DNA of 64,000 nucleotides. It comes from Verrucomicrobium spinosum DSM 4136 = JCM 18804 (GTDB lineage: Bacteria; Verrucomicrobiota; Verrucomicrobiia; Verrucomicrobiales; Verrucomicrobiaceae). Under the pieces are notes generated by a model. The model saw only the letters and a program-made list of their open reading frames with translations, made no database searches and was not told the origin of the DNA. A program made the position numbers and the translations under genes. Positions 8,894 through 59,700 of the stretch are shown here, in pieces (within the stretch, counting starts at the first letter, position 1; each line of letters begins with the position of its first letter). The stretch covers positions 1,674,001 through 1,738,000 of the forward strand of contig NZ_ABIZ01000001.1 of the NCBI RefSeq assembly GCF_000172155.1, in the 5' to 3' direction.

Positions 8894-10180
8894 CTACGGT
8901 CTGAGGGCGAGGCCTCCAGTGGTACGGCGCACTTCGGCTGCCAGAATCCGCACTTCGGCAAAGCTCGTCAGTCCAGCAGAGGCCTTGGCCAGGGCATCGC
9001 TCAGTAGCGGTTGCATGCCTTGCGCCATCGCATGCCTGGTTAGCTGGAGATCATCCGCGCCGCGCAAGATCATCTCCCTGGCTTCCGCATCAATGCGCCA
9101 GACTTCGAAGATGCCCAGCCTCCCCTGGTAGCCCGTGCCACCGCATGCATCACAACCCACACTGGAGAAGATTTGTTCCGGAACTGGGAGCCCGAGCTCT
9201 CCATACCAGTGGGCAGCTTCGTCTCCGGGGGGGCCTCCCGAACGGCATTTTGTGCACAGCCGCCTCACCAGTCTCTGTGAGACACACAGCTCAATGGCCG
9301 CTGCCACTTCCCAGAGCTGCAGCCCGTAGTTGCGCAGGGTGGTGACGGCTCCAACGGCATCGCGGGCATGAAGGGTGGAAAGCAAAGTTTGCCCGCTCCC
9401 TGCGGCGGTGATTGCCACATGGGCGCTTTCGGAATCACGTATCTCCCCCACCAGCAGATAGTCGGGATCGAGACGCAACATCGCCCGCATGGCTTCTGGG
9501 AAAGTCATGCCACGTTTCACATGCACTTCAATCTGGGTGATGCCGTCCAGATTGCACTCGACTGGATCCTCCACGGTCACGATGCTGCGGGGTTCCTTCT
9601 GCAATTCGTGCAGCAAGGCGTAGAGAGTGGAGGTCTTTCCAGTTCCCACCGGACCACACACCAGCAGCATCCCCTGCATGCCTTCGAGCCAGGTCCGCAG
9701 ATGGCGTTGGTCCTCCTCCTTCATTCCCAAATCATCCAGCCGCAGCAGGGGGCGCTGTGTGTCCAGAAGGCGGATGCCGATCATCTCACCATTGACCGTA
9801 GGTGCAACAGTAGTCCTCAACTCCAGCACGGTGCCTCCAGCAGCCATCCGGCAGTGACCGTGTTCGGGCGTTGCGATGGCGGTTGCATTGATCTGTGACT
9901 GGATCTTGAAATAGGCGACCAACCGATGGCCGGAAAAATTTGGGACCTCCGCCACATCATGCAGCACACCGTCGATGCGGAATCGAATTCTTGTCTGTTC
10001 AGAGGCAGGCTCAATATGCACATCCGAGGCTCTCCATTGAACCGCATCCGCGAGAAGTGCGGTGGCGCGTTCCTGCGTGCGGGGTTCGTCAGCGACTGGC
10101 GGATGACTGCCAAGATAGGCGTGATACTGGGGTGCCAGTCTCGGTTCCACTGGCCGGGGGTTGGGCAGGAACGATATCAT
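8894..10180 (-). CDS. GspE/PulE/PilB-family secretion ATPase (solitary, short N-terminus)
   Basis: A 428-residue cytosolic hexameric ATPase of the type II secretion/type IV pilus family. In order: N2 domain from about 35 with ASDVHIEP and RIRFRIDGVLHDV; Walker A GPVGTGKT (176-183); Asp-box TVEDPVE; Walker B LLVGEIRD (242-249); His-box STLHARDA (268-275); and a tetracysteine zinc site (C309, C312, C343, C346). It lacks the N1/MshEN domain of full-length GspE and PilB (usually 500-570 residues), so it may be a minor or variant assembly ATPase. No pilin, GspF/PilC or secretin gene is nearby, so its machine must be encoded elsewhere. Confidence 0.93.
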   Translation of the reverse strand: MISFLPNPRPVEPRLAPQYHAYLGSHPPVADEPRTQERATALLADAVQWRASDVHIEPASEQTRIRFRIDGVLHDVAEVPNFSGHRLVAYFKIQSQINATAIATPEHGHCRMAAGGTVLELRTTVAPTVNGEMIGIRLLDTQRPLLRLDDLGMKEEDQRHLRTWLEGMQGMLLVCGPVGTGKTSTLYALLHELQKEPRSIVTVEDPVECNLDGITQIEVHVKRGMTFPEAMRAMLRLDPDYLLVGEIRDSESAHVAITAAGSGQTLLSTLHARDAVGAVTTLRNYGLQLWEVAAAIELCVSQRLVRRLCTKCRSGGPPGDEAAHWYGELGLPVPEQIFSSVGCDACGGTGYQGRLGIFEVWRIDAEAREMILRGADDLQLTRHAMAQGMQPLLSDALAKASAGLTSFAEVRILAAEVRRTTGGLALRP

Positions 10181-11317: not shown

Positions 11318-12166
11318 TCACAGCCCGGGCACCAGGAGCGTCCCGGGGATGCCGCTGCGGATTTTTTGGTCCGGATTGTTGAAGAGAAGATGGACCTCGG
11401 AGAGGCCGGTGGCGGCGTCCACGGTGGGGGAAATGAAGCGGATGGCACCCTCGAGGAGGGTGCCGTCGGAGGAGTCGAGTGCGAGCTTGAGCTTCTGGCC
11501 CAGCCGGAGAGGTTCGGTGAGGCGGGCCGGCATGTGGACGCGGGCGATGAGCTGGGAGAGGTCCACGATCTTTGCCACGTAGTCAGGAGTGTCGGCCCGG
11601 CGTGCTTCCACGGCCTCGCCAGCATCGCGGGTGATCTCGGTGACGATGCCGTCGATGGGGCTGCGCAGGATGCGCTGCTCGAACTGGGCGCGAATGGTCG
11701 CGGCCTGGTGCTTCAGGTTCTCGCTTTCTTCTTGAGCGGCTTTGTACTGGCCCTCGGCGACGGCCACGGTGGCCTTGGCCTTGTCCCACTCCGCCTGATT
11801 GGTGCTGCCGCTGTTCCTGAGAGTCTCCAGGATGGTGAGGCGCTGTTTGGAGATCTGGTACTCCGCCTCGGCGGACTTGAGCCGTCCTTCATTGAGGGCT
11901 TGGGCCTCTGCCTGGGCAAGTTGGGCCTCGATCACCGTCGCGTTCAGCCGGAGGATTTCCTGGCCCTTCTTCACCTTGTCGCCGGGTTTCACCAGGATCG
12001 TGCTGACCACGCCGCTCTCGGCAGAGGCCAGGTTGATCTCATGGATGGGGCGCAGGAAGGTGAGCACCTGGCTGTCTGCTGCCTGGGTGCCTCCCGCCGC
12101 CATCGCAATGAGGCTGAGCGCAACCGCGATCAAGGCGGGACCTGGAGTTTGAGTGAAGGATTTCAT
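11318..12166 (-). CDS. Periplasmic adaptor / membrane fusion protein (HlyD/RND-MFP family)
   Basis: A 282-residue protein with a cleavable signal peptide (hydrophobic run about 10-25, likely cut after GGTQA). The barrel-sandwich (lipoyl-like) half-motifs are SAESGVVSTILVKPGDKVKKGQEIL and, after a coiled-coil hairpin of about 90 residues rich in Ala/Glu/Gln, RSPIDGIVTEI. A beta-barrel domain follows (VHMPARLTEPLRLGQKLKL). Such adaptors bridge inner-membrane pumps and TolC-type ducts. The start ATG overlaps the TGA stop of the SecA-like gene by 4 bp (ATGA), so the two are translationally coupled. I infer that it serves the export of the giant protein encoded divergently, not small-molecule efflux, because no RND or ABC pump is nearby. 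Confidence 0.88.
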   Translation of the reverse strand: MKSFTQTPGPALIAVALSLIAMAAGGTQAADSQVLTFLRPIHEINLASAESGVVSTILVKPGDKVKKGQEILRLNATVIEAQLAQAEAQALNEGRLKSAEAEYQISKQRLTILETLRNSGSTNQAEWDKAKATVAVAEGQYKAAQEESENLKHQAATIRAQFEQRILRSPIDGIVTEITRDAGEAVEARRADTPDYVAKIVDLSQLIARVHMPARLTEPLRLGQKLKLALDSSDGTLLEGAIRFISPTVDAATGLSEVHLLFNNPDQKIRSGIPGTLLVPGL

Positions 12167-14013
12167 GCGAGGCTTTTGCGGGTCTGGTCCATCCAGCGGT
12201 CACGCTGTTCCATCTGGATGCGCTGGGCGTAGCGGAGCTTTTGCACGCGGGTTTGCAGTGTGGAGAATAGGCGGGCGGTGGCGTCTGGCAAACGTCCGTC
12301 AGGATCGGCGGCCATGCGGGCGAGTTGTTTCCCTGTATCGGGGGCGAACTGTTCCATGAGATTGTCTTCGGCACTGAGGAAGAAGAGGGAGGTGCCGGGC
12401 TGGCCCTGGCGGGCGCACCGGCCCGCGAGCTGGCGGTCCACGCGGAGGGACTCGCTGCGCTCGACGCCGATGACGTGCAGGCCACCCAGGGCGAGGGCCT
12501 CTGGTGGCAGGGAGATATGGGTGCCGCGGCCGGCCATGTTCGTGGCCACCACCACGCTGCCCGGCTGCCCGGCCTGGGCGATGATGTCGTTCTCCTCGGA
12601 GTCCTGGCGGGCATTGAGCACGCGGTGGGGCACTCCGATGCCGGTGAGGATGGCGGCAAGATCCTCACTGATCTTGATGGTGCGGGTGCCCACCAGCACG
12701 GGTTGCTGGGTGAGCCAGCGCTGTTTCACCTCCGCCGCCACGGCCTGGAGCATGGTCTCCCGGCTGCGGTACACGCGATCTGGCAGGGACAGGCGGCGGC
12801 TGGGCTTGTTGGGCTCGATCGGGCGCACCGGGAGCTGGAAGAAGTGGTGGAACTCCTTGCGGCTCTCCGACCCGGTCCCGGTGAGGCCGGAGAGGCTGTC
12901 ATAGAGGCGGAAGTAGCGCTGGCGGGTGATGCTGGCGGCGGTGTGGCTCTCGGGCGGGATGTCCACGCCCTCCTTGGCGGCCACTGCCTGGTGCAGGCCC
13001 TGCTGCCAGGAGCGCTCCTCGTGGGCGCGCCCGGTGAACTCATCCACGATCACCACCTTGCCCTCCTGGAGGATGTAGTGCTCCCCATGGTGAAAGGCGT
13101 GGTGGGCATTCAGTGCATTCGTCAGGTACTGGTGCCACGGCCGCACGAGCGCGTCCCAGGGAATGCCCGGGCGCTGGTTGGCGGCGGCACGTCCCTCCTC
13201 GGTGAGGCGGGCATTGCGTCCCCGCGCATCGAGGATGAAGTCGTGGCCTTCCTGCAGGCTCTGCGCCGCCTCATGGGCGGTGAGGTAGGCCTCGGGCACC
13301 GTGCGCTCGGTGGACGGCTGGGCGATGACGAGCGGAGAGGCCGCCTCATCAATGAGCACGCTGTCGATCTCATCCACAATGGCGCTGGCCAGAGAGCGCT
13401 GCACCACCTCTGCCTCCGGGTGCTCCCGGCCCGTGAGGAGATTGCGCAGCCGGAAGCTGGGCCCATGTTGGGCGTGCTTCAGCAGGGCCAGTTGGTCGCG
13501 CAGGTAGTCGAAGCCAAAGTCGTACCCCGTGCCGTAGGTGATGTCGCACTGGTAGGCGGCGCGCTTCTCCGCGTGGCTCTGCTCCTGCTTCAAGTACCCT
13601 ACAGTGAGGCCCAGCCGGGCCGCAATGGGGGTGGCGAATTCAAAGTCGCGCTCCGAGAGGTAGGCGTTCACCGTGGCCACGTGGACGCCCCGCTTTGGCA
13701 GGGCCCGCAGGCATGCCGCCAGGGCGGTGATGAGGGTCTTGCCCTCCCCAGTGGCCACCTCGGTGATGGCGGGCTCCAGCAGGGCAATGATCGCCCTCGT
13801 CTGGCAGGGGTAGGCGCGCAGGCCACCCGCGCGAAAGGCGGCCTCTTTCACCACCGCCAGTGCTTCCGGCAGGATCCGCTCCAGAGTGGTGAGCTGTCTC
13901 AGCAGGTCAAAGCTCCACTGGCACCATTGCCCCTGGAGCGCCTCGTCCGAAAGCTGGGAGACGGCTTTTTCCCGGGCCAGGGATTGTTTAAGGATACGCT
14001 CAAGAGCTGACAT
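12163..14013 (-). CDS. SecA-like accessory ATPase lacking the C-terminal half of SecA
   Basis: A 616-residue SecA homologue. Visible parts: ALAVVKEAAFRAGGLRAYPCQ region, Walker A ATGEGKT (87-93), TVNAYLSERD, ITYGTGYDFGFDYLRDQ, Walker B DEIDSVLIDEA (214-224), a preprotein cross-linking-like segment (about 225-370), SLSGLTGTG, VATNMAGRGTHI (489-500) and GRCARQGQPGTS. Housekeeping SecA is about 850-1000 residues; this one stops within the first scaffold helix, so the two-helix finger, wing domain and zinc tail are missing. Two conserved motifs differ: GRGTD is GRGTH, and GRSGRQGD is GRCARQGQ. Nucleotide-binding residues are intact. It is coupled to the adaptor gene and divergent from the giant gene, which suggests a dedicated translocation role; this is inference. 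Confidence 0.9.
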   Translation of the reverse strand: MSALERILKQSLAREKAVSQLSDEALQGQWCQWSFDLLRQLTTLERILPEALAVVKEAAFRAGGLRAYPCQTRAIIALLEPAITEVATGEGKTLITALAACLRALPKRGVHVATVNAYLSERDFEFATPIAARLGLTVGYLKQEQSHAEKRAAYQCDITYGTGYDFGFDYLRDQLALLKHAQHGPSFRLRNLLTGREHPEAEVVQRSLASAIVDEIDSVLIDEAASPLVIAQPSTERTVPEAYLTAHEAAQSLQEGHDFILDARGRNARLTEEGRAAANQRPGIPWDALVRPWHQYLTNALNAHHAFHHGEHYILQEGKVVIVDEFTGRAHEERSWQQGLHQAVAAKEGVDIPPESHTAASITRQRYFRLYDSLSGLTGTGSESRKEFHHFFQLPVRPIEPNKPSRRLSLPDRVYRSRETMLQAVAAEVKQRWLTQQPVLVGTRTIKISEDLAAILTGIGVPHRVLNARQDSEENDIIAQAGQPGSVVVATNMAGRGTHISLPPEALALGGLHVIGVERSESLRVDRQLAGRCARQGQPGTSLFFLSAEDNLMEQFAPDTGKQLARMAADPDGRLPDATARLFSTLQTRVQKLRYAQRIQMEQRDRWMDQTRKSLA

Positions 14014-14236
14014 GGGCGACTACCATGGCCTGATGTTTGCTTGGAGAAATTAGAATCGATGCGAACCAGCCGCAGGGCAGGTCTCTATAAAGGGTGCCAC
14101 CACCTATCGCTAGGACAATGGCGGTTCAAATGGAGCAAGGGTAAGGCTAAAGGTGTATGAATAATTTGCATCCGTAAATATTAATAACTTGACGCAGAAA
14201 CTATAATAACTAGCATTGGCCCATTTTTAAACGGCC
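14014..14236. promoter_or_regulatory. Divergent promoter region between the SecA-like and giant genes
   Basis: The 223-bp gap becomes markedly AT-rich near the giant gene. TTGACG (14189-14194) and TAGCAT (14211-14216) are 16 bp apart; a perfect TATAAT (14202-14207) lies only 7 bp after TTGACG. Either could form the rightward promoter. No Shine-Dalgarno sequence precedes the ATG at 14237. Confidence 0.45.
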
Positions 14237-17200
14237 ATGATCCCTCCTAATTCCTCCCCTGGGGCCCCCAACCGCCGCAAAAAAGGAGGCTCCAAGCTCT
14301 CCAAACGCGTTGCTGACTGGTTTTTTGGAGGGGAGGCTGGCGAGGATCGGGTGCGACATGAGACGCTGGAGCCCCGCATTTTGTACTCAGCCAGTCCGCT
14401 GGAGGAGCCGCCGCCGGTGCCAGATGCCCCTCCAGTGGCGCAGCAGCAGGGGCCAGATGCGGGCAGTCAAGGCAGTGGAGAGGGCAGCGGCCCCGCGCCA
14501 GTCACGCAAGATCAGACCCCGCCCGTGGATGCGGAATCTGGGGTGAACCCAGAGGGTGATCTGGCCACCATCCTCCAGGGGGTGCAGGACCTTCCTGCCG
14601 GGGAGGTGCAGTCCCTGGTCTCCAACCAGCTGAGCCTGGAAATCCAGATGCAGGGCCACATCGACTGGAGCCAGATGGGGCTTCCCACCGACCAGCCCGG
14701 CACCATCCACATCCGTGGCACCGATCACACGGACGACCTCCTTTCGCTGGACTTGAGCCAGTTCTCCACGTCTCTGGACCTCTACTTTGACGGCGGCGCG
14801 GGTGGTTTCGATGTGCTGAAAATCACCGGGGTGACTTCGGGCGGCTACACTCCCGGAGCCCAGGCGGGTGAGGGCGTCCTCGTTTTTGGCAACCATCGCA
14901 TCCAGTTCTCCGGCGTGGAGCCCGTCATCATTGAGGGCACTGGTGAAGGTGCCAGCTTCACCTTCACCACCCCGCATGGTGTGGATGACCTGGTGCTGGA
15001 CAGTCCGGCGGATGGCTGGAGCCGCATCCGCGGCACCAGTGGCGGAGTCGCCTTTGAGGAGCTGGTCTTCTCCAATGTGGAGCAGGTCATCGTGGACGCC
15101 ATGTCCCATGACGCTCCCGGCGAGAGTGCGGATGAGGTGACCGTTGCCACCGATCTGCGCGCCCGTGGCCTGCGGGAGCTCACCATCCTCACCGGGGAGG
15201 GGGATGACACCCTGGTTCTCGGGACCAACAATCTCCCGCCACCCGTCTCTGGCGGGAGCTTCACCTTTGACGGCGGGTCTGGAAATGACCGCATCATCGG
15301 TTCTGGTGCAGATACGACCTGGTTGGTGACCGGGCACAATGAGGGAAGCGTGTATGGCTTGCGCTTCAGCGGGGTGGAAAATCTGGAGGGAGCGGCGGAC
15401 AATGAAGACCGCTTTGTGTTTGAGACGGCCGGTCAGCTGGATGGCTTGATTGACGGGGGTGCTGGTGGGTTCGATACGGTAGTGCTCGACGGAGGAAGTT
15501 CCGCGAACGCAGTTTTCCGGGCATTTGGTCCCGATTCTGGTCTGATTGAGACAGACCTCTCCACGCTGGCCTATCGCGGGCTGGAGCCGATTGACTACAG
15601 CGGCACTTCTGACGCCATCATCCACCTCACGGGTGGGGACGACCAGGCGATCCTGGAGGTGAATGAGCACGGCCAGCTGAGCCTGCGTTCACTGAACAAC
15701 AGCTTTGAGCTGATCAATTTCAACACGTCGCTCAATTCGCTCACCATCATCGGTGGAGGCGGGTATGACAGCGTGCTGGTGGGCGACGGGGTGACCCTGG
15801 GGCTGGATGGCAGCTTCACCATTGAGTCAGAAGACATCACCGTGGCCGCAGGAGCCACCGTGAATGCAGGCACCATCCGTCTGAGCGCCTATGATGGAGA
15901 TGCCACCGGCATCGGGGTGACCACGCAAGTGGGGGTGGTGAATCGCACCGCCTCCCTGGTGGTGAGTGGCACCCTTAACTCCGACGGCACCCTTACGTTG
16001 GAGGCGCTGGCTTCGCGCAATGTGCATCTTTCCGGTCTTGATGAAGCGATTCTCAGTGCACTGACCACGGCCACCGTCACGGTGGAGACTGGTGCCGTCG
16101 TCCAGTCAGCGGGGTTGACCACGGTCTCCGCCCTCACTTCGGGGATCGTCGAGTCCACTGCTGCGGACTTGGTGCTGCACGCTTTCACAGAGAGCGCCTC
16201 CACCTACATCGGGTTTGCCACCTTCACCGTGGCAGGGCTCTCCGTCTCCGCCACCACCAGCGGGGCGTATTCCGCCACTTCACGCACCGCGACGAATCGC
16301 GTGGCAGGCATCACGTCCGCCGTGCTGGATGGCACTGTCGTGAACTCGACCGCCGCGGTCTCTGTGGTGGCGCTGGACAACTCCAGGCTGGACGCGAAGA
16401 CGGGCAACGTCTCCACGGATCTCGTCTCCCTGGTGGGCGATGTCGTCATCGGCCAGTCGTTTGCTCTCAACGATCTTCATCGCCTTGTTCAGGCCGCGGT
16501 ATCGGGTGCTGATGTGGATGCCAGCGCCGGTGGCCTGGCCGTCACGGCCACCCGGAACATTGATGCCTCCTCCAATGTGGGGGTCGTCGCCGTCACCGGT
16601 GGCCCCGCCTCTCTCCTGCCCAGCCTCAGCTTTGGCGGCACCAAGGCGGTGAATGTGATCTCCGGGGAGGTTTCCTCGCTCCTCTCCTCCAGCGATGTCG
16701 ATCTGGCCACCGGCGGGGTCACCGTGTCTGCGGCGGACACCTCCCAGGTGTCGGCCCATAGCAAGGTGGCGGCGGCTTCGACCGTGGGAGAGTTCTCCAC
16801 CTTGTCTGCCGGACTTTCGATCGGCATGTCGGAGGCCTGGAACCTCTACGGCGTGCGACCAGACGATGTGGCGGCCCTTGACATGACGGATCTGCTTGGG
16901 GCGGATCTGGGGGGGACGTTGTCCGGCCCGGTAGTGGCAGTGGTGCAGGATTCCACGCTGGATGTGGGTGGGGACGTCTCCGTGCTGGCTACGGCTCAGG
17001 TGACGCTTGATTCTGAGGTGACCAATCTGGTGGACACCGCGGTGGACGGATTCTCCGGCACCGGCGCGGCGGCGGCAGGTGCTGTCTTCTCCTCCAACAT
17101 CGTCAACACCGGTGCCAGTGCAGTGATTCGCCGCCAGGTAGAGGCCACCACGGTGACTGCTGCGGGGGACATCCTCGTGTCGGCGGTGGATGAGTCCTCC

Positions 17201-48315: not shown

Positions 48316-50649
48316 ATGCAACACACCCCCCCGCCTGAACCAACCCCCGCCTCCTCCCCAGGCTGGACCAATCTGACCTGGGTGCCCCTCGTTGCCCTGG
48401 CGACGGTCATGACCGCGTCTGGGCAGGAGGCACCCACCTCCTCGGATGTCCCGGCCAAGCAGGAGGCAGCTGCTCCCAAAGACGCCAAGGAGATTGAACT
48501 GATCGAGCAGCAGCTCGTCGCCCAGATCGCGCTGACGCAGATGGCCCTCACCCAGATGATGATCTCCCGGCCGCCAGACCTTGGTGAAGGGGATGTGGAT
48601 GAGAAAGCTGCAACCACCGAAAGCTCTGATGGGGAGAGTGCAACGGAGAAGCCTGCCCCGGTGAAGAAGCACCCGACCGGTGTGGCCAAAAAGGCCCAGG
48701 TCGCGAAATCCACGAAAACGACGGAGCGGACTGTCGTCTCCAAGAGCGTCGCCCCTGCTCCCGCGCCAGAAGTGGCCGCCCCTGCTCTGGTGAAAAAGAA
48801 GCGGGGCTGGTTCTCCCGCATGTTCACCGATGATGACGATGACAAAAAACAGGCTCCCGTGGCGGCTCCTGCCACCGTGGCCCAGCAGCATGATGACAAG
48901 CTGAAAACTTACTTCCCGGATGCTGGGGATGGCTCCGTGAAGATCTCCAAGCATGAGCAGTTCGGCAATGAGGCGGTGGCCGGCATTTTTGGTGAAATTG
49001 TCCGCGAGACCCAGCGGTTCAATTCACCAGAACTGGAGCTTTCCAGCATTTCCAAACTGCCGCCTGTGCCGGATGACTTCGATGCCAGCTGGAAGACGCA
49101 GATCCGCGAGCAGGTTTGGGAGAACCAGACGCCTGTGCGCTATGGCGTGGAGAAGGCTTACTCCACCGCGCTGAACAACTCGCCCAACGTCCGTACCTTC
49201 CTGCGCATCCCAAAGATCCGCGAGACCTTGATCCGGGAGAACAAGGGGATCTTCTCCCCCCAGCTTTTTGCGGAGCTGGACTACGCGCATGGTGACCAGC
49301 CTACGGGCTCCGTCCTCACCACCGGCAAGACGGGCCGCTTTATTCAGGACACCCTGGAAGGCGAGTATGGCATCCGCCAGCGCATCGGTACCGGCGGGGA
49401 GGTTTCCCTCTCGCACCGCATGAGCACCCTGCGGAACAACTCAGAATTCCTCGACCCCAACCCCCAGACTGGCAGTGAGCTGGTGCTCTCTGTGGCCCAG
49501 CCGCTTTTGCGCGGGGCAGGCTCCACCTATGTGCACAGTGAGATTCGCCTGGCAGAGCTGGACCGCAGCATGGCCCGTGGCGAAACGGTGCGTCTCCTGG
49601 AGGAGTACATCCTGGAGGTGAACCGCGCCTACTGGGGCGTGTACCTCTCCCGCGCCGCCCTGGCCCAGCGCCAGCAGCTGACGAAGCAGACCTCCGAGCT
49701 GCTCAAAATGCTGGAAGAGCGCCAGAAGCTGGATGAGTCCGCCACGAAGAGCGAACTCTTCCGCGCGACGGCCACCATGAACCGTCGTGAGGCGGACCTC
49801 CGCCGCACCCGCATGGCCGTGCGCACCGCTGAGCAGCGGCTCCGTGCCATGATGAAGGATCCCGCCGCCCCCATGGGTGCCAGCGGGGAGATCATCCCGG
49901 TGTCCCGGCCGCACCTGGCCCGGCCGCAGGTGGACATCCAGTCCATCTCCAAGGAAGCGCTCCTGAACCGCTCTGAGATGGCCCAGGCCTCCTCCAAGGT
50001 GCGGTCCGCTGCCGTGCGCCGCAGTCAGGTTATTTCCGAGTTGCGCCCGCAGCTCGACCTCGTGGGTGAGGTGGGGTCCGCAGGGATCAGCGGCGGTCGG
50101 AATCTGGGCAACGCCATTGATGACCAGACCAGCAGCGGCCTCGACTGGAGCGTCGGCCTGCGCTTCAGCTACCCGCTGGGCAATGATGCGGCCAAGGCCC
50201 GTCTGGACCGTCGCGAGATCGAGTACCAGCAGTCGCTGGATGACTACCGTATCCAGGGGGAAAACGTGCTGCTCCAGACCGTGGTGGCCTACCAGGACCT
50301 GCTCACCGCCTATCAGGACATGGCTGGCAAATACCAGTCCGCCCTGGCCTCCCGTCGTGAGATCCAGCAACTGCAGGATCGCATGAAACTGGCGGACCAG
50401 GATCCAGGAAAAACGGTGGCCTACCAGATCCAGCTGCTGCTGGATGCGATCGACCGCAATCAAGTGGCGGAGGAGGAGTTCCTCGTGGCGGTGGTGGCTT
50501 ACAACACCTCCATCGCCCAGCTCCAGCGCGCCCAGGGGGTGTTGATGAAGGTCAAGGACGTGGTGCCCCTGCACTATGGCCCGCAGAGCAGCCCCACGGC
50601 GGCCGATCCACGCCTGCCCGTGGGTCTGAACCTCAAGTCCACCAAGTAG
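48316..50649 (+). CDS. TolC-family outer-membrane protein with a long N-terminal extension
   Basis: A 777-residue protein. Residues about 20-36 (TWVPLVALATVMTASG) look like a signal-peptide core. Then come a Gln/Leu-rich helix (ELIEQQLVAQIALTQMALTQ), a low-complexity Pro/Ala/Lys/Thr segment to about 200 with KKKRGWFSRMF and an Asp run, and the TolC-like domain from about 270 to the end. That domain has the repeated coiled-coil and strand pattern of the family (GEYGIRQRIGTGGEVSLSHR, SVAQPLLRGAG, LRFSYPLGNDAAKARLDR). Canonical TolC is about 450-500 residues, so some 250 residues are extra. It starts 74 bp after the giant gene on the same strand; I infer it is the exit duct for that protein. It ends 3 bp from the convergent M50 gene. 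Confidence 0.87.
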   Translation: MQHTPPPEPTPASSPGWTNLTWVPLVALATVMTASGQEAPTSSDVPAKQEAAAPKDAKEIELIEQQLVAQIALTQMALTQMMISRPPDLGEGDVDEKAATTESSDGESATEKPAPVKKHPTGVAKKAQVAKSTKTTERTVVSKSVAPAPAPEVAAPALVKKKRGWFSRMFTDDDDDKKQAPVAAPATVAQQHDDKLKTYFPDAGDGSVKISKHEQFGNEAVAGIFGEIVRETQRFNSPELELSSISKLPPVPDDFDASWKTQIREQVWENQTPVRYGVEKAYSTALNNSPNVRTFLRIPKIRETLIRENKGIFSPQLFAELDYAHGDQPTGSVLTTGKTGRFIQDTLEGEYGIRQRIGTGGEVSLSHRMSTLRNNSEFLDPNPQTGSELVLSVAQPLLRGAGSTYVHSEIRLAELDRSMARGETVRLLEEYILEVNRAYWGVYLSRAALAQRQQLTKQTSELLKMLEERQKLDESATKSELFRATATMNRREADLRRTRMAVRTAEQRLRAMMKDPAAPMGASGEIIPVSRPHLARPQVDIQSISKEALLNRSEMAQASSKVRSAAVRRSQVISELRPQLDLVGEVGSAGISGGRNLGNAIDDQTSSGLDWSVGLRFSYPLGNDAAKARLDRREIEYQQSLDDYRIQGENVLLQTVVAYQDLLTAYQDMAGKYQSALASRREIQQLQDRMKLADQDPGKTVAYQIQLLLDAIDRNQVAEEEFLVAVVAYNTSIAQLQRAQGVLMKVKDVVPLHYGPQSSPTAADPRLPVGLNLKSTK

Positions 50650-50652
50650 TGA

Positions 50653-52908
50653 TCACGACGCGGGGCTGAGGAAGGCTTTTTCCAGGTAGGTGCGTACCGC
50701 GCGGTACAGGTACCAGCCCAGAGCCTCCTCAGTCTCGCCTTCATAGAACGACCGGCCCCATTCCCCCTCCTTCAGGTCTGCCGCCTCCTGGGCGGCGGCG
50801 TACAGGGTGAATCTGGGTTGCAGCAGCTCCATGTTCTCCCGCTGGGTTTCGGGCTTGATGGAGTCGTAGTAGGTGACAGACTCGGACCGGTCAGCCCCCC
50901 GGGCAAGCCCCTGCTTGTTGGTGGCGGTCTCTCGCTGGCTGATGCTGCGCACCGCGAGCGGCCCGTCCGCAGATGATGCCAGCACCTGGCTGGGCACCGC
51001 CAGGGTGGCCTTCGTCTCCGCCCTGCGGAACTTCGCGTGATATTCACCGGGCCGGCCCAGCAGCCGGATGCGGAAGGACCGGGGGGCAGACGCCAGTTCC
51101 GGGCCGATGCGTTGAAAGTCCTGCTGACGCATCGAGATGAGAAACTCAGGGGCCTCATCGGGGATGACCGTGAGCAGAGGATGGCCGGTGTCAAAGAATG
51201 AGCCCCGCTGCTGCGGCAGCCCGGGCGCATGCACCCGGCCGGAAATGGGGGATCGCACCTCCATGGCGCGCACGCGCTTTTGCTGGACGGCCACCTTCTC
51301 CTTGAGCCCCGCCGTCTTCTGCTGCTCGGTCTGCCATTCCTCGAACCGACCGGTGAGGTAGAGCATGCGCGCCTTGGTTTCTGAGAGGCCCAGCTGGGCG
51401 TGATACATCTCCAGCTGGACGACCTCCGGCTCGTTGGCCAGATCGATGAGTTGCTGCCCTTTCTCCACCCGCTGGCCGTCCTTCACATACTGCCGGGCCA
51501 TGAAGCCCGGCACTTCTGCCCGCACCACGGCTTTCCCGGGATACTCCACGACCGCCAGCCCGGCCGCCGAGGGATTGATCTGGATGAACAACAGCGCCGC
51601 CACCACGACCAGCAGCCCCAGACCGATGCGCCACCACGCCGTGCCCCATGGGATGTGGCCGGCCTTTTCCGAGGGCTTGAAAAAAGAGACGGCGGAGTGC
51701 AGAAATCCCGCCACGCCAAGCACGCCTGCAATCAACAGCGGCAGCAGACCCATGCCGTGAAACAGATGCGCGGCCAGCGCCATGAGGCCGATGGTGACCA
51801 GGATGCGCCAGCACCAGGAGGCCACCCCGTAGGTGAGGTAGGTGAAGAACCGCTTCCGCACCACCGGCGGCAGGGAGGCATGCTTCGCCCCCAGAAAGAG
51901 CCGCCGGTTCAGCCAGGTAAAGGCCTGCTGCCCGCGTTGACCCAGATTCCGCAGATCCAGCAGGTCGGAGAAGATGTAATAACCGTCAAAACGCATGAGC
52001 GGATTGGCGTTGAACAGCAGCGTGATCATGGAGGCGGAGATCAGCACATTGAAGCAGATTTCCCGCAGCAGCCCCGGCTCCGTCACCGTCCAGAGATGCA
52101 GCGCCGCCACCGCCAGCAGCAGTTCCACATACATGCCTGCCGCCGCCACCTTGATGCGGTGCCAGCGGTTGGGGAAACGCCAGCTGGAGCTCGCATCCAC
52201 ATACGTCATGGGGGAGATCCACGCGATGATCTGCACGCCCCACTCCGGCACGACCCCGCCGTACTTTTGCGTGGCGATGCCATGCCACAACTCATGCACC
52301 AGCTTGAGCCCCACCGTCACCCCGAGAAGCCAGAACCAGTTCTGGGGCAGGAGGGCGCGTGAAGACGCCTCCACGAGCTCCACATAGTTCGACATCGCCA
52401 GGTACGCACCGTAGCCCGCGGCCACCAGCGCCAGCAACAGGGGCAACGGGTTCAAGGTCCAACCCAGCGCGCGGGTGAAGGGCAGGAGGAAGGAATCTGG
52501 TGAACCCAGCGGGAGTTTGAAGGAGAAGAACTTCTGCCATTGCTTCCCCATCGACTTGGGCGTCTGGTCCTCCGCGTGGGCCAGCCGGCGGTCTGCCTGG
52601 TCCGACCGCGTGGTCTGCAGCAGGTGGTGGTCGATCGCCCACCTCAGCAGCGATTCCGCTTCGGTCTCCGTGAGTTCGTTTTTTCCAGCGGAACATTCCG
52701 CCACCAGTTTCGCCGCAGGCTTGGTCCCGTTGAGGGAGCGCAGGAAGCGGTACTCCGGTACGCCCAGCTGGTGGTAGCTGCGGTTCGAGCGGTCTTCCAC
52801 CACGTACATGGCCCGGCCTTCCACGATCTGGAAGTGGAACTGCAGGTCCTGTCGCAGCCGGGGGCGGGCAGTGTCCCAGGTGACGACGGCGTGATCGATC
52901 ATCGACAT
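50653..52908 (-). CDS. Membrane fusion: PqqD-like domain + M50 metallopeptidase + HlyD adaptor
   Basis: A 751-residue protein. Residues about 15-100 resemble a PqqD-like/winged-helix peptide-binding domain (YHQLGVPEYRFLRSLNG). Hydrophobic segments start at about 150. The zinc site of site-2-protease-like M50 peptidases is complete: HELWH (205-209) and NANPLMRFDGY (300-310) with its aspartate. More membrane segments run to about 445. The C-terminal part from about 450 is a HlyD-type barrel-sandwich (VVRAEVPGFM, DGQRVEKGQQLIDL, then SPISGRVHAPG) in the periplasm. The start lies 4 bp after the stop of the upstream GAF/HlyD gene, so they form an operon. Possible roles are processing of the exported giant protein or use of the M50 fold as a non-proteolytic scaffold. 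Confidence 0.85.
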   Translation of the reverse strand: MSMIDHAVVTWDTARPRLRQDLQFHFQIVEGRAMYVVEDRSNRSYHQLGVPEYRFLRSLNGTKPAAKLVAECSAGKNELTETEAESLLRWAIDHHLLQTTRSDQADRRLAHAEDQTPKSMGKQWQKFFSFKLPLGSPDSFLLPFTRALGWTLNPLPLLLALVAAGYGAYLAMSNYVELVEASSRALLPQNWFWLLGVTVGLKLVHELWHGIATQKYGGVVPEWGVQIIAWISPMTYVDASSSWRFPNRWHRIKVAAAGMYVELLLAVAALHLWTVTEPGLLREICFNVLISASMITLLFNANPLMRFDGYYIFSDLLDLRNLGQRGQQAFTWLNRRLFLGAKHASLPPVVRKRFFTYLTYGVASWCWRILVTIGLMALAAHLFHGMGLLPLLIAGVLGVAGFLHSAVSFFKPSEKAGHIPWGTAWWRIGLGLLVVVAALLFIQINPSAAGLAVVEYPGKAVVRAEVPGFMARQYVKDGQRVEKGQQLIDLANEPEVVQLEMYHAQLGLSETKARMLYLTGRFEEWQTEQQKTAGLKEKVAVQQKRVRAMEVRSPISGRVHAPGLPQQRGSFFDTGHPLLTVIPDEAPEFLISMRQQDFQRIGPELASAPRSFRIRLLGRPGEYHAKFRRAETKATLAVPSQVLASSADGPLAVRSISQRETATNKQGLARGADRSESVTYYDSIKPETQRENMELLQPRFTLYAAAQEAADLKEGEWGRSFYEGETEEALGWYLYRAVRTYLEKAFLSPAS

Positions 52909-52912
52909 GGTC

Positions 52913-54742
52913 TCACCAGGGCAGGTTCAGGCGGATGAATTCCAGCGGGCGGTGGAAGAGGATCCACCCCAGACTCTTGTTTCCGCTGGTGATGCGGGCC
53001 TTGCCCTGCATGCCGGGGCGCAGCCGGCCGCTGCTGTTGTCCAGCGTGGTCGTGCCCAGGAAGACGTTCTTGCCCTCATGAATGCGGGAGACCGGCTCCA
53101 GGGTATTCACCACCCCGGTCTGGCGGAACTCCGCCTCCGACTCAAGGCGGATGGAGACGGACATGCCCGGGGCGACATGGCGGATCTCAGAGGCGGGCAC
53201 CGCCAGTTGCACGGTGAAGCTCTCGATGGGGGCCACATCAAAGAGGCGCTGCCCCCGCTGCACCGGCACGCCCTCAGACTGGGAGAGGTCTCCGGAAATA
53301 ACCACACCGTCCAGCGGCGAGCGGATCTGGAGGTTCTCACTCTGGTACTGCAGGAGCCGGCGCTCCGCATCCAGGGACGCCATTTCCAGGGAGGCGAGCT
53401 GCGCCTCAGACATGTTTTCCGCCGCCAGCATCTGGTCGCGGCGTTTGGTGAGGGCGTTCAGCCGTGCCTGTACCTCGGCCAGTTTCCAGCCGATTTCCTT
53501 GCCATCCAGCTCTGCGAGCACCTGCCCCTGCTGAATCTGTTGTCCTGGCTTCACATGAGCGGCCGCCAGGATGCCGTCGAACGGCACCGCCACCTGCCTG
53601 CGCAGTTCGGGATCACTCCAGCAGGGCACTCCCAGCTTGTAGGGGAGGGGGACGAACATCAGCGCGGTGAACAGCAGCAGGAGTGCCAGCACCACGGAGC
53701 GGCGCGACCACCGCGCCTCTGCCACATGCTGCTGGTAGAAGCCCAGCAGCCCTGCCGGACGCGCCATGCGGATCGTCTTTGCCGCAGCGCCCACATGGGG
53801 CGTCACGGCATCCGCCAGCCGGAGTTTCTCCGCCGCCGGGCGTTCTGCCCACCAGCACACCCATACGCCAAAGATTTCCCCCTCCACGTTCTTCAGCGGG
53901 TGCACGGTGACGGCCTTGGCCTTGAGTTGATCCAGCAGCCCGTCCTGATCGCTGGCCAGATTCAGGCCCGGCATGGCAGCCAGGATCTCCAGCGGCCAGC
54001 CAATCGCACTGCCCACGGCGATGGATTCCCGCATGAGCTGTGCCGCCCGTTGCAGCGTCTGGCTGCGGTGGTCAAACTTGCTCCCTGGTGCCAGCGCCTC
54101 CACCCGGCAGTTGAGCCTGGAACCGAGACCCACGGCCACATACTCCGCCCCCACAAAGGTGCGCAGGTCTTCCGCCAGCACCTGCATGCCCCGCCGGAAG
54201 GTGGGAGCGGAGGCGGAGCGGTAGATGGTGTCAAGAAACAAGCACGTCTGGTCCAGCCCGTGACGCAAAGACTCGCTCTCCTGGAGCAGCCGACGCTGCC
54301 CGTACAGAGATTGCGGAATGATCAGCATCTGGGCCAGCCGCGTCTCCTGGGCGGGATCCAGGGCCGAGGCACTCAGCAGCAGTGCGACTCCCACAGAGCC
54401 TTCCTGCTCCAGGCCCATGGCCCACAAGATGAGGCCCACCTGGTTCAGCTTGTGCATCACCCGGGTGCGGGACTTCAGGCCTGCCACCAGAGTGGCCCTC
54501 ACCTCCGGTGCCTCCAGCAAACCGGGTGGCAGGGAGACGCGAATGCGGGTGGCAAGGAGCGCGACTGTGCCGGATTGCTCCGCGTAGATCAGGGTGGTGG
54601 CCCCCGTCAGCTCTGCCGCGTGTGCCGCCAGTCCGCGGTAGAACTGGCTGTCATCCTTGGCCTGGAGCAGCGATTTCAGCTCTTGCGGCGTGGCCGATCC
54701 TCCGGGCGGCGCGGGGAGTCGAATGGCCTCGGCAGATTTCAT
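52913..54742 (-). CDS. GAF-like domain + transmembrane helix + HlyD-type adaptor
   Basis: A 609-residue protein. Residues about 20-330 form a cytosolic region with GAF-like character (QFYRGLAAHAAELTGATTLIYAE near the start; VLAEDLRTFVGAEYVAVGLG at about 188-207). A single transmembrane helix at about 349-366 (SVVLALLLLFTALMFVPL) leads to a periplasmic HlyD-like part: VPFDGILAAAHVKPGQQIQQGQVLAELDG, a coiled coil, RSPLDGVVISG, then a beta-barrel. This type-II topology fits an inner-membrane adaptor whose cytosolic domain could sense a ligand or recruit a partner. Downstream is the M50/HlyD gene after 4 bp; upstream, 80 bp away, is the DUF3467 gene, with a terminator-like hairpin between. Confidence 0.8.
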   Translation of the reverse strand: MKSAEAIRLPAPPGGSATPQELKSLLQAKDDSQFYRGLAAHAAELTGATTLIYAEQSGTVALLATRIRVSLPPGLLEAPEVRATLVAGLKSRTRVMHKLNQVGLILWAMGLEQEGSVGVALLLSASALDPAQETRLAQMLIIPQSLYGQRRLLQESESLRHGLDQTCLFLDTIYRSASAPTFRRGMQVLAEDLRTFVGAEYVAVGLGSRLNCRVEALAPGSKFDHRSQTLQRAAQLMRESIAVGSAIGWPLEILAAMPGLNLASDQDGLLDQLKAKAVTVHPLKNVEGEIFGVWVCWWAERPAAEKLRLADAVTPHVGAAAKTIRMARPAGLLGFYQQHVAEARWSRRSVVLALLLLFTALMFVPLPYKLGVPCWSDPELRRQVAVPFDGILAAAHVKPGQQIQQGQVLAELDGKEIGWKLAEVQARLNALTKRRDQMLAAENMSEAQLASLEMASLDAERRLLQYQSENLQIRSPLDGVVISGDLSQSEGVPVQRGQRLFDVAPIESFTVQLAVPASEIRHVAPGMSVSIRLESEAEFRQTGVVNTLEPVSRIHEGKNVFLGTTTLDNSSGRLRPGMQGKARITSGNKSLGWILFHRPLEFIRLNLPW

Positions 54743-54822: not shown

Positions 54823-55164
54823 TCAGGCGGATGCCTTGCCCTGGCGGCTGGCTTCCACCTGCTTTTGAATCACCCCTGACAGTGTCTGGACCAGCTTCAG
54901 CGCATTGGCCGGCGTCAGCGCGATGCGCTTTTGGATCGGCAGCACGTGACGGCCTGTGTTGTGGTCAGAGATGATGCCTGTGGAGAAGTCGAGCACGATC
55001 TGGTCACGCCCGGAGTTAACAATCACCTGGTTGGCGAAAAGGGCGCCGGTTTCCTCATAGAGGATTTGAACGTTGGGCTTGTTAATGGCCTTGAGTTCTT
55101 CCTGGTCTCCGGGGGCATCAGAACCTGCGGAGGGCTTCACGGACTTGGCTTTGGGGTCGCTCAT
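54823..55164 (-). CDS. DUF3467 protein
   Basis: A 113-residue cytosolic protein. After a Lys/Ser/Asp-rich N-terminus the conserved DUF3467 pattern appears: ALFANQVIVNSGRDQIVLDFSTG, then RIALTPANALKLVQTLSGVI at the C-terminus. The family is widespread in PVC and other bacteria; no biochemical role is known to me. It is first in the leftward group with the GAF/HlyD and M50/HlyD genes, suggesting a regulatory or chaperone-like part in the export system; this rests on position alone. A promoter with consensus-like hexamers lies about 35 bp upstream. Confidence 0.82.
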   Translation of the reverse strand: MSDPKAKSVKPSAGSDAPGDQEELKAINKPNVQILYEETGALFANQVIVNSGRDQIVLDFSTGIISDHNTGRHVLPIQKRIALTPANALKLVQTLSGVIQKQVEASRQGKASA

Positions 55165-55224: not shown

Positions 55225-56725
55225 TTGGGGGCACTGGCACTTTAGGGGTAATTTGCCCGGAATTGTTCTTGATAGAGTGGTCCACGGACTTCTTTGGGTT
55301 GCTTGAAACAAGCGAGTGCCTAGGAAACTATGCCGGGCAGGCTTGGTTGGGCAATCATTGCCCGAGGCAACCAAGGTGACCACTCGCGGGTGTCTGTAGG
55401 GATGTGAATGGTTTGGAGGTCTTGAAGAGTAACCTTTAGAGCCTGTTGGGCGAAAAAATGGGTGCTGGCGTGGACTTTTGCGTCTGGAAAAGGCCTAAAA
55501 CGGCCGTCTTCAGTCTCTGCGAAGCTTTTCTTATCTCATACCCTTGGTTGAATTCGCCCCAGATGGATATTTTTTATCCCGACCGGTTCTCTGATGTTTT
55601 CTGACAGGGTCCCGATCTTCCTCACAGACTCATCTGGCCATTCTGAGGGTGCCTTGGATCTGCGTCACACGGTGTATCTCCTGAAACCCCTCCAGGCATT
55701 GCAAATGAGGGCGTCAAGGTCAAAACCGCGAACCCCGCCGGCCGTCCCCAGATCAGCACCCGTTCATCCAAAAAAAGGCCCGCCAGGCAGATGGTGCGGA
55801 AGGGTTGAACGGGAGCTGCCGGTGAACATCGATTCCATTAACCGGATCGAAGCAGATGCAAGCTATGTACCTTGCGCTGCGACAACGAGCGGCATCTTGT
55901 CCGATGCAGTATTCGCGAGCTGGAGCAGCGGATTGATGGGAGGTTCTTTCTGCGGTTGAATCGATCCGCATTCGTCGATTTTGACCGGGTTGCGGAACTG
56001 CGTCACACAGGATAGACAGTGCGAGTTGTCTTGAATGCCCCGAGAATGACTCCAGGTGACAGAGGCTTCGAGGATCGGGTCAGTTTCGCAAGAGGGGAGA
56101 GTGGTGATTTGTTGTATTTGTCAAGAGACAATTGAGCGATGTCTGGGCAGGCTGTTTTCAAGTTGGAGCAGCGTTGCCAATGGGGATGGCGAGAATGTTT
56201 TCGGCATGGTTTGGCAAAGTTGGTCCATTCTTCGAACGCCTCTCGTCAGGCCCCTTGAGGGGCAGGATACAGCTCTCTGTGCGGAGAACTTGTTCAGCTA
56301 GTCGGCCTGTTCTCAAAAGCCGTTTGCTCTCAAAATGATTTTTTGAAAGAAATGGATGCCAATACAACGTACTCACCGAGACATGAACTCACCCCTTCAG
56401 CTATTCTGTGGCAATCCATACTGGCCGACTGCCGATATGGTCATTGTGGAACACGTGTCCCCTGAATACGACTGAACGAAATTGTCCCGACCGCTGGCCA
56501 TTTTTTGCACTGTATGGAGTTGCAGGAAATCTTGTCGTCGAGTCCACCTGGGATGTTGTTCTAACAGGATCATCTTCCCTCCGCCGTGATGTCTTTTATG
56601 GACTCATGCGTTAAGACGCATGCTCTCCTCAATTCATCTCCCTGAGCGGATTGCCATGCGCAACCTGATTTCGTTCTTCCTCCCACTGTCTCCAGTATTG
56701 GTTCTTTTTCCGTTGCTGTTTCCTC
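55225..56725. other. Long intergenic region before the beta-strand-repeat protein
   Basis: About 1.5 kb. Short open frames occur (for example 55594-55959 rightward and 56629-57003 leftward), but none shows a recognisable family or signal. There is some inverted-repeat text around 55325-55400. I cannot identify an RNA gene or mobile element. Regulatory sequences for both flanking genes are expected here. Confidence 0.4.
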
Positions 56726-59700
56726 ATGAGTCCCCGTCGTTTTTCCCGATTGATGATCTTGGCCGCCGTCCACGCATTGCTGCCATGGTCGCCATTCGCA
56801 CATGCACAGTTCTTTGACGCGTCTAGTGATTCCGGACTCAATCCCAATCCCGGGGCGGCTCCGATGTTGTGGAACAGCAATGTCTGGCAGATCAGTGGCA
56901 CGCCGGGTTCAACCGCGCCATCAGCTTGGGTGAACGGGAATTCCGCGATGTTCCAGACTGTGGGCATCAACCGGTTGGATGTTGCCGGTCCCGTTTCCGT
57001 CAATGAACTGCATCAATACGGCTCCAGTGAAACCTACATCGGGGGATCGGGAACTCTGGAAATCTCCGGTGGTTTTGTGGTCAACTATTCGACGGAGGAT
57101 CTTCATTTCTCCAGAGGGTTGAGGTTGAACCTCAATCCCGCCTTGCTGGGCTCATCGAACCAGACTTGGGATGCCTCGGGTGCGGACATCGTCGTTGATG
57201 CAGTCATTTCGGGAGAGCTTCCGGGAGATCCATTGATGGGAGGGGGAATGGTGAAGCAGGGGAGCAACACGCTATTCCTCAACAATGCCAACACTTACTC
57301 CGGAATGACCACCGTGAACGCGGGTTGGATTCACCTCGGCAACACTCGGGCGTTGGGGGCGAGTACCGTCACTCTGGCAGGGGGAGGACTGCGGTATGGC
57401 GCGGGGATCACGGTGGACATCTCCTCGAAAATCGCTGAAATCACTGGCGCTGGAGGTTTGATCGATACAAACGGAAACGACATCACCTTCAAAAAGAGCC
57501 TGGTGGGTGCCGGCACACTTTCGAAGACGGGTGACGGGAGGTTGACGCTCAAAGCCACGGCCGGAGATGTTTCGTTTGCCGGGTCCGTCATTGTGGAGCA
57601 GGGTATCCTAGCCCTGTCGGCGGGGACGGGTTTTACCAACAACTTTATCCCCACTGGCGGCATTGTCGTAAAGGACGGGGCCACCTTGGACATTTCCGGT
57701 CTGGCGGACACGGTTGCCACCGTGACGGCTCCAATTTCGCTTGCAGGACGTGGAGTGGACAATCTGGGTGCGTTGGTAAAGAACTCATCTGCGGATTGGG
57801 ATCCTGGGTTTTCGGGACTGAGCCTCACCGGGCACACCACTGTCGGAGTGCACGGAAGCCGTGTCGATATTGAAGGCCCATCGAACGCCAATGGGTACAG
57901 TCTCACCAAGATTGGAGCGGGCTCGTTTCAGATGGACAGTTCGTTGGAGAATCTGGGCAATGTGTATGTGAAGCAGGCCGAAGTGGGCTTTCATGGCAGC
58001 TCGACCCTGGGAGTCAATACGCATTCTATTGTGATCAATTCCGGGGCCGGCATCTCCTCCTGGGAACGCGGAGTAAGCTCGGAAAAGGGCATCATTCTAA
58101 ACGGCGGATACATTTCGCGGACGGGGCGCAACACTGCCGTGACGTCCAACGGCATGCTGATCCAGGTTCGAGGAGGATTGAGTGTGGCATCCGGCCATTC
58201 GGAATTCCGCAACAACTTCGGTGGCTATAACTATGTGGTTTACCAGTTGAACACGATCAGCCGCCAGATCGGTGCCGCGTTGAATGTGCAGGACACTTCA
58301 GCATTGTCCACGACAGGTACGATTGGTGGGACCCCACAGTTGGGCAACCCAACCCTTGTTACCACCAGCACAGGCAACACCAATGGCATCATTGGGGGTT
58401 ACTTCACCTACGGCAACAACACCTGGGCGGTCAACGCCACGAATGGAACCAATGGCTCCGTGACTGGCCTCACTGCCTTTGAAATGAGCCTGGACCCTGC
58501 GGCTTGGGCAGATGCCACACCCAAGAACATCAGCTTGAATGGCAATGCCTCGGGTTCGATTGCGAGTGATTTGACCATCAACTCCTTGCGGCTCACCGCT
58601 GCATCGGTCGTCAACATTGATGCCACCCGGACCCTGACGCTCCAGAGTGGCGGACTTCTTGTGACAGGCAGCGGTGCCACCTCCATCGCAGGTGCTGGAA
58701 CCTTGCGTGGTGCGGCAGGTCAGGATCTTGTCATTCACCAGAACGGTTCCCAGACTCTCACCATTGCTGCCACCATTGCCGACAATGGGGGGGCAACAGC
58801 GCTGACCAAAACGGGAGACGGCATGCTGGTGCTTTCCGGCACCAACACTTATACGGGGCACACCTACATCAATGGGCGGGCAGGCGGTGGCAGCAGCACC
58901 GGTCAGGCGATCCTCTCGGTCACCAGCCTGGTATCATCAGGCTCCGACAATTTGGGCAGTTCCACCAATCAGATCTACTTCAACAATGGAGTGTTGCGCT
59001 ATGCCAACACCACCACGGATGCGACCACGGTCCGCACAGTGAATCTTCTCTCCGGCGGCGGCACTTTTGATGTTCAGACTTCAGGACGCGTCTTGACGCT
59101 CTCTGGCAAGATCACTGGCGAGGGACTTGCCGCTGATGAGGGCTATTTCTTCGGTCAGGGTAATCTTAACAAGGTGGGCGCGGGCACGCTAATCCTCACC
59201 AGTGGGGACAATGATTATACCGGATCCACCATCATTAGTGCGGGAACGCTCCGACTGGCAGGTGCAGGCAAGTTGGGTGGCAAGGACACTTACTATTCCC
59301 AGGTGGTGATGAGCGCGGGTGCCACGCTGGAATTAAATGGCACAAATCAGACGGTGGGTTTGCTGTCAGGTGCTGGCGGTTCCATCCGGAACAGCGGGTC
59401 TGGCACTTCCGTGTTCACCATCGGTGCGGACAATGTCAGCAGCAATACTCCGTTGTGGGGAGTGGGTGCGGGCTATGGCGGGGTGATTGAGGACGGCACG
59501 ACCGGCAAGGTTTCCCTCGTGAAGACTGGCACGGGCCTGCAGATCCTTTCGGGAAACAACACCTACACTGGGGCTACGGATGTGACCCGGGGCAACCTTC
59601 AAGTGGGAAGTGGCACTGGTGCCACCAGTGGCGCGGTGGCTGGAGCTGGCGGAACCACGGTGAGGACCGGTGCAACCCTATCTGGCAACGGTACAGTGGG

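Follow-up and report, generated by a model that had tools for sequence, protein, structure and literature searches.

What task is left for a SecA protein that ends within its first scaffold helix and whose gene is the divergent neighbour of one encoding 11,334 residues? Such a pair of genes is found in a 64,000-nucleotide stretch of the Verrucomicrobium spinosum genome, called the window here. A preliminary description of the window had treated the short SecA as an unknown protein. It is, however, a member of a family that was published in 2015 under the name of secondary SecA_DEAD proteins (Kamneva, Poudel and Ward, PMC4452313). According to the accessible passages of that paper, these proteins comprise SecA_DEAD without SecA_SW, form a clade apart from housekeeping SecA and occur in Verrucomicrobia, Planctomycetes and Proteobacteria. 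Their loci are described as type-I-secretion-like, with a peptidase M50/HlyD protein, a GAF/HlyD protein, an HlyD adaptor and sometimes an outer membrane efflux protein (OEP) encoded nearby, and that of Methylobacterium extorquens AM1 is among the loci named. A SecA-type ATPase was proposed to act instead of an ABC transporter, with the M50 protein as pore, and the biological role was left open. In the same passages neither a substrate nor a leader motif nor a PqqD domain is named, and a text search of the paper, as far as accessible, turned up neither giant nor cadherin proteins. Later work on the family was not found in the open literature, a scope that excludes subscription papers and most preprints. 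New here are a candidate substrate and a candidate leader for a secondary SecA locus.

Results

The short SecA is a natural paralogue of SecA in which the catalytic motifs are intact and the C-terminal part is missing. It is encoded on the reverse strand (12163–14013) and consists of 616 aa that make up NBD1, PPXD, NBD2 and the start of the scaffold helix. Pfam placed SecA_DEAD at residues 3–388, SecA_PP_bind at 241–344 and P-loop_SecA at 406–503, and a Pfam search of the 616-aa protein did not find SecA_SW, in agreement with the preliminary reading of a SecA paralogue without finger, wing and zinc domains. Solved SecA structures aligned along nearly the entire protein (best E 1e-126), and identity to E. 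coli SecA was 39–50% across NBD1, PPXD and NBD2. In the alignment the catalytic residues match those of E. coli SecA, so that the Walker A and DEIDSVLIDEA motifs are indeed intact, as had been stated. Walker A reads GEGKT, with K92 in the place of E. coli K108; DEIDSVLIDEA is kept, with D214 and D222 corresponding to E. coli D209 and D217; and the arginines R566, R574 and R577 (E. coli numbering) are retained. E. coli D512 is replaced by H499 (GRGTH) and E. coli D580 by Q538. The final residue aligns with approximately E. coli 657, within the first scaffold helix, which bears out the end point described before. The remaining scaffold, the finger, the wing and the zinc tail are absent, and with the finger the protein lacks the part said to push the polypeptide. 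What there is of a scaffold tail is 11–25% identical to other SecAs. About 20 extra residues precede the VQR motif of NBD1 in short SecAs, but in none of the four full-length SecAs shown. Four NCBIfam SecA2 models scored 519, 433, 422 and 358 bits against the short SecA, all below their cut-offs of 1085, 930, 725 and 1100. AlphaFold, run on five sequences, reached a mean pLDDT of 53, too poor to use.

The short end could reflect a damaged gene. A truncated housekeeping SecA was ruled out by a full copy elsewhere in the genome (a 1102-aa frame, C1:3053399–3056329) and by the separate clade of the short SecA. As had been suggested, we placed the protein in a phylogeny. In this tree, which left out actinobacterial SecA2, one branch with a support of 100/99 split 24 short from 21 full-length SecAs, and the short SecA lies outside housekeeping SecA. 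A split gene was ruled out as well: the missing half was looked for as a separate gene across the V. spinosum genome (8.22 Mb, one contig) and none was found, SecA_SW occurring only once, inside the full-length SecA. The end point is a feature of the whole family, the 24 short SecAs continuing for 77–95 residues beyond the motif VI glutamine and full-length SecAs for 254–391. The reported change of GRGTD to GRGTH is real, and GRGTH was found in 5/5 members of the window subclade (the window and L003–L006, 49–95% identical), to which it is confined. Most other short SecAs have GRGTD, and a few have GRGAD, GRGVD or GRGSD. Since relatives share them, conservation extends to the end point and to GRGTH alike, although GRGTH marks the window subclade only. 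As to GRCARQGQ, which had been listed as an altered motif, the exchange of the final D for Q stands. In contrast, GRCARQG is not degenerate but ordinary for Verrucomicrobiota, whose housekeeping SecAs, that of V. spinosum included, read GRCARQGD, and the residue after it varies among other short SecAs (D/E/Q/K/N/G). One Verrucomicrobiota genome (G096) contained two SecA frames of full-length size (1137 and 997 aa).

The gene set of the window spans 11318–55164. The short SecA gene is followed on the reverse strand by that of a 282-aa RND/HlyD-type periplasmic adaptor (11318–12166), whose start codon overlaps the short SecA stop (ATGA). On its other side, an intergenic region (14014–14236) leads to the divergent gene of the giant protein, the proposed substrate (11,334 aa; 14237–48241, forward strand). 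A TolC-like OEP of 777 aa is encoded 74 bp past the giant gene (48316–50649, forward strand). The reverse strand then carries the genes for an M50 membrane metalloprotease fused to an HlyD domain (M50/HlyD protein; 751 aa, 50653–52908), for a 609-aa HlyD protein that is the counterpart of the GAF/HlyD protein (52913–54742) and, upstream of the latter, for a 113-aa DUF3467 protein (54823–55164). Pfam recognised both the HlyD adaptor and the TolC-like OEP in the set, and no GAF domain in the HlyD protein of the window. There is no ABC transporter among the module genes, either in the window or in its relatives, and the V. spinosum genome holds one SecY and no second. The DUF3467 gene has the same place in alphaproteobacterial modules (Methylosinus, Pseudohalocynthiibacter and Thalassospira); it stands beside the adaptor gene in Mesorhizobium and close to the module in the genomes G187 and G190. 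A search of the DUF3467 profile against PDB sequences returned nothing meaningful.

Two other genes lie in the vicinity. A stand-alone GspE/PilB-type ATPase (T2SSE, 326 bits; 8894–10180, reverse strand) is encoded 1.1 kb downstream of the adaptor gene. It was ruled out as a part of the module and is probably unrelated to it, because it is missing from other module loci; the GspE near the Variovorax module is part of a T2SS operon. At 56669–64000 (forward strand), a second very long frame of 2,444 codons runs off the window. It looks like a repeat-rich surface protein and has a signal-peptide-like start.

The N-terminus of the giant protein matched NCBIfam NF012209 (LEPR-XLL) with 25.9 bits, against a cut-off of 17. 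The motif itself (LEPRILYSASP; 14354–14416, forward strand) is the proposed export leader; in giants it lies close to the N-terminus and in many cases follows a basic stretch. No hydrophobic segment was found within the first 120 residues of the window's giant. Most of this protein is made up of long repeats that hardly differ from each other, such as blocks with SGFTGQNSMAAS; PKD domains were seen towards its C-terminus and long shadow frames on the opposite strand. In genome G187, the giant adjoining the short SecA carries DUF4347 and had no HMM hit, yet it starts IETLEDRVLYNA. This start means that the LEPR-XLL HMM is narrower than the actual motif.

The M50/HlyD protein has HExxH in 23/23 copies and the residues of the NxNP..FDGY motif in 21–23 of them; the window copy reads HELWH and NANPLMRFDGY. 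Since HExxH is kept throughout, the protein probably works as an active protease and is more than a pore. In relatives, its N-terminal domain is of the PqqD type: PqqD (PF05402) scored above the cut-off in the alphaproteobacterial copies L071, L072 and L078. PF05402 did not match the window copy, in which the conserved L24, R25, G37 and D45 align. Many RiPP recognition elements (RREs), binders of leader peptides, are included in PF05402 (PMC12710340). The nearest curated family is the daptide protease model NF041824 (152 bits, cut-off 300), and for MpaP, a daptide protein, removal of a leader by RRE-dependent intramembrane peptidase activity has been described (PMC10036551). For the N-terminal domain of the M50 protein AlphaFold gave a mean pLDDT of 52, and a PDB search was without match at E ≤ 0.001. 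As both AlphaFold models were poor, they are not used for any structural claim.

In other Verrucomicrobiota the gene order OEP, adaptor, GAF/HlyD, M50/HlyD, short SecA recurs, often with a frame of thousands of codons after it. The same gene set was detected on alphaproteobacterial plasmids, where it adjoins a 38.8-kb LEPR-XLL gene in Pseudosulfitobacter, a 26.5-kb gene in Methylosinus and a 31.6-kb gene in Mesorhizobium. Two of the alphaproteobacterial short SecAs are annotated as 'prepilin peptidase' (L071:14776–16800 and L072:14920–16836); NCBIfam identifies both as SecA (E about 1e-172 to 1e-179). In Pseudosulfitobacter, the M50 and short SecA genes are separated by a gene of the SapC family (PF07277, 245 bits; L071:13962–14783). 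Hits to SecA or M50 proteins, which served as bait, led to 11 plasmids. An LEPR giant accompanies the short SecA on all seven that have one (3.5–13 thousand aa, E ≤ 3.4e-7), and Pseudosulfitobacter has two short SecAs and two LEPR giants. The other four modules, from Azospirillum, Tistrella, Variovorax and Thalassospira (L076, L077, L080, L081), are without a short SecA on record. Two of these records have the variant LEPR(F/M)MFDAAG, one has no motif and one the normal LEPR. Either a subtype can do without the motor, or the motor is encoded on a chromosome, outside the record; these four possibly represent a SecA-independent subtype.

To what extent do short SecA and LEPR giants occur together? 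Both were searched separately, first in 145 and then in 388 Verrucomicrobiota genomes. Applying limits of E ≤ 1e-84 for the short SecA (set from the gap in the 145-genome sample) and E ≤ 0.002 for LEPR, we found a short SecA in 26 of the 388 genomes, LEPR-XLL in 25 and both in 23 (Fisher P=1.1e-31), an association that by itself shows neither direction nor mechanism. Since kinship inflates the Fisher P value, we compared genomes within families of the 145-genome sample, and in the mixed families (f3, f5, f20 and f25) presence of the one matched presence of the other perfectly (exact P=4e-5). Short SecA and LEPR are often no more than 500 bp apart in Verrucomicrobiota; in seven genomes, the LEPR start was located 237–471 bp from the short SecA. 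In the genomes with LEPR only (G119 and G331), the matches were partial (positions 7–18; frames of 636 and 403 aa), and a motif scan did not find an LEPR-type motif in the matched stretch of G119. In those with SecA only, the module lies near contig ends (G190 and G295) or the short SecA is divergent and without module (G086). That is, giants of two phyla that share one short N-terminal tag occur with the short SecA gene set. The tie to the giant protein, proposed in the preliminary description, is thereby extended from the adjacent divergent genes of the window to co-occurrence across genomes and to the same pairing in Alphaproteobacteria. Because the gene set co-occurs with tagged giants in two phyla, the short SecA probably helps to secrete the giant protein next door.

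Discussion

With the published family the window copy shares SecA_DEAD and PP_bind without SecA_SW, the separate clade, and the M50/HlyD and HlyD neighbours; it differs in GRGTH, in the HELWH of the M50 protein and in the lack of a recognisable GAF domain. HlyD-type adaptors, a TolC-like OEP and a very large repeat-rich neighbour are also characteristic of type I secretion, but in the window set the ABC transporter gives way to a SecA-type ATPase and an M50 membrane protein, and the proposed signal of the giant is N-terminal, not C-terminal. Like the short SecA, the second SecA copy of SecA2 accessory systems (SecA2-only and SecA2-SecY2) accompanies a dedicated substrate locus. SecA2 retains the scaffold and the finger, as is also evident from the NCBIfam model lengths, whereas the short SecA lacks both and is not joined by a second SecY. 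MpaP of daptides (NF041824; PMC10036551) resembles the M50/HlyD protein in that an RRE-type domain, recognised in relatives of the window copy, is fused to an M50 HExxH protease and the leader, putative for the giant, bears a short conserved motif; the M50/HlyD protein has an added HlyD domain, and its partner is a giant protein and not a short peptide.

A close counterpart in architecture is SecA-N68 of E. coli (PDB 5K9T), which comprises NBD1, PPXD and NBD2 without the C-terminal helical domains. It is a constitutive ATPase that binds signal peptides and SecYEG but cannot translocate (PMC5603524). SecA-N68 is a laboratory truncation of housekeeping SecA, whereas the short SecA is a natural paralogue with its additional residues before VQR and about 35 residues of the scaffold helix. 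Because SecA-N68 hydrolyses ATP constitutively and cannot translocate, we infer by analogy that the short SecA would need a channel other than SecYEG, for which the M50/HlyD assembly is the likeliest candidate, and external control of its ATPase.

We put the chance at about even (probability roughly 0.5) that the neighbouring 11,334-aa giant has a dedicated exporter, with the short SecA as its ATPase and the LEPR leader as the steering signal. The giant would then be the substrate, and transport would be directed outwards. Its N-terminus, a basic stretch plus the LEPR-XLL motif, is the putative leader, to which the PqqD-like (RRE) N-terminal domain of the M50/HlyD protein would bind. The short SecA, as the natural equivalent of SecA-N68, would keep the polypeptide unfolded and use ATP hydrolysis to move it onwards. 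The inner membrane would be connected to the TolC-like OEP by the M50/HlyD, HlyD and adaptor proteins, with the M50 protein as the presumed channel, and the giant would exit in a single step. Its leader may be cleaved at the M50 active site. Somewhat more tentatively, we propose a distinct secretion system, in which a finger-less SecA takes the place of the ABC transporter in powering an HlyD/TolC-type conduit across two membranes, and proteins of 4–20 thousand residues are marked for export by an N-terminal LEPR-XLL leader that a PqqD-like domain reads and an M50 protease cuts.

To deny the protein firmly any function with SecYEG would go too far, since the equivalent fragment SecA-N68 still binds SecYEG (PMC5603524). 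Conceivably, the short SecA is an additional subunit for ordinary SecYEG, with a targeting or regulatory task: it would bind the giant and pass it on to SecYEG, housekeeping SecA would do the pushing, and the HlyD and OEP genes would serve to cross the outer membrane only. With a single SecY in the genome, any Sec route must use that SecY. Binding of SecA-N68 to SecYEG is tight and extends to signal peptides (PMC5603524), and fragments whose last residue lies between 643 and 669 have been described as critical for functional interaction with SecYEG (PMC5456053), a range that includes the end of the short SecA at about 657. However, the giant is without a hydrophobic signal peptide, the locus always brings its own membrane proteins and the low identity of the scaffold tail to other SecAs holds here as well, so that we regard such a role as rather unlikely.

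The absence of the finger from all short SecAs and the existence of modules without any short SecA on record would also fit an ATP-driven chaperone that keeps the giant unfolded until the M50/HlyD channel, using another energy source, takes it. Yet the Walker motifs and the motif V/VI arginines are all kept, and the locus has no further conserved ATPase, which makes a mere chaperone unlikely. It is improbable that the M50, PqqD and SecA genes serve a RiPP-like maturation or modification of the giant's N-terminus and leave export to another route: the daptide protease model is the nearest relative of the M50 protein among curated families and PqqD domains occur in its relatives, but three HlyD proteins and an OEP belong to the set, and a conserved modifying enzyme does not. 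A decaying SecA duplicate without function, as the missing C-terminal third and D512H might suggest, can practically be dismissed, given that the protein is conserved in 26/388 Verrucomicrobiota genomes as well as in Alphaproteobacteria, where neither the end point nor the integrity of the catalytic motifs differs.

A dedicated exporter driven by the short SecA thus remains our preferred reading. No substrate was assigned to the secondary SecA in the 2015 paper, and the LEPR-XLL family of NCBI marks some of the largest bacterial proteins. Joining both families gives them a testable job and raises the questions of which motor and channel bring giant surface proteins of Verrucomicrobiota and Alphaproteobacteria out of the cell, and of whether the motor core of SecA, deprived of its finger, can function independently of SecYEG.
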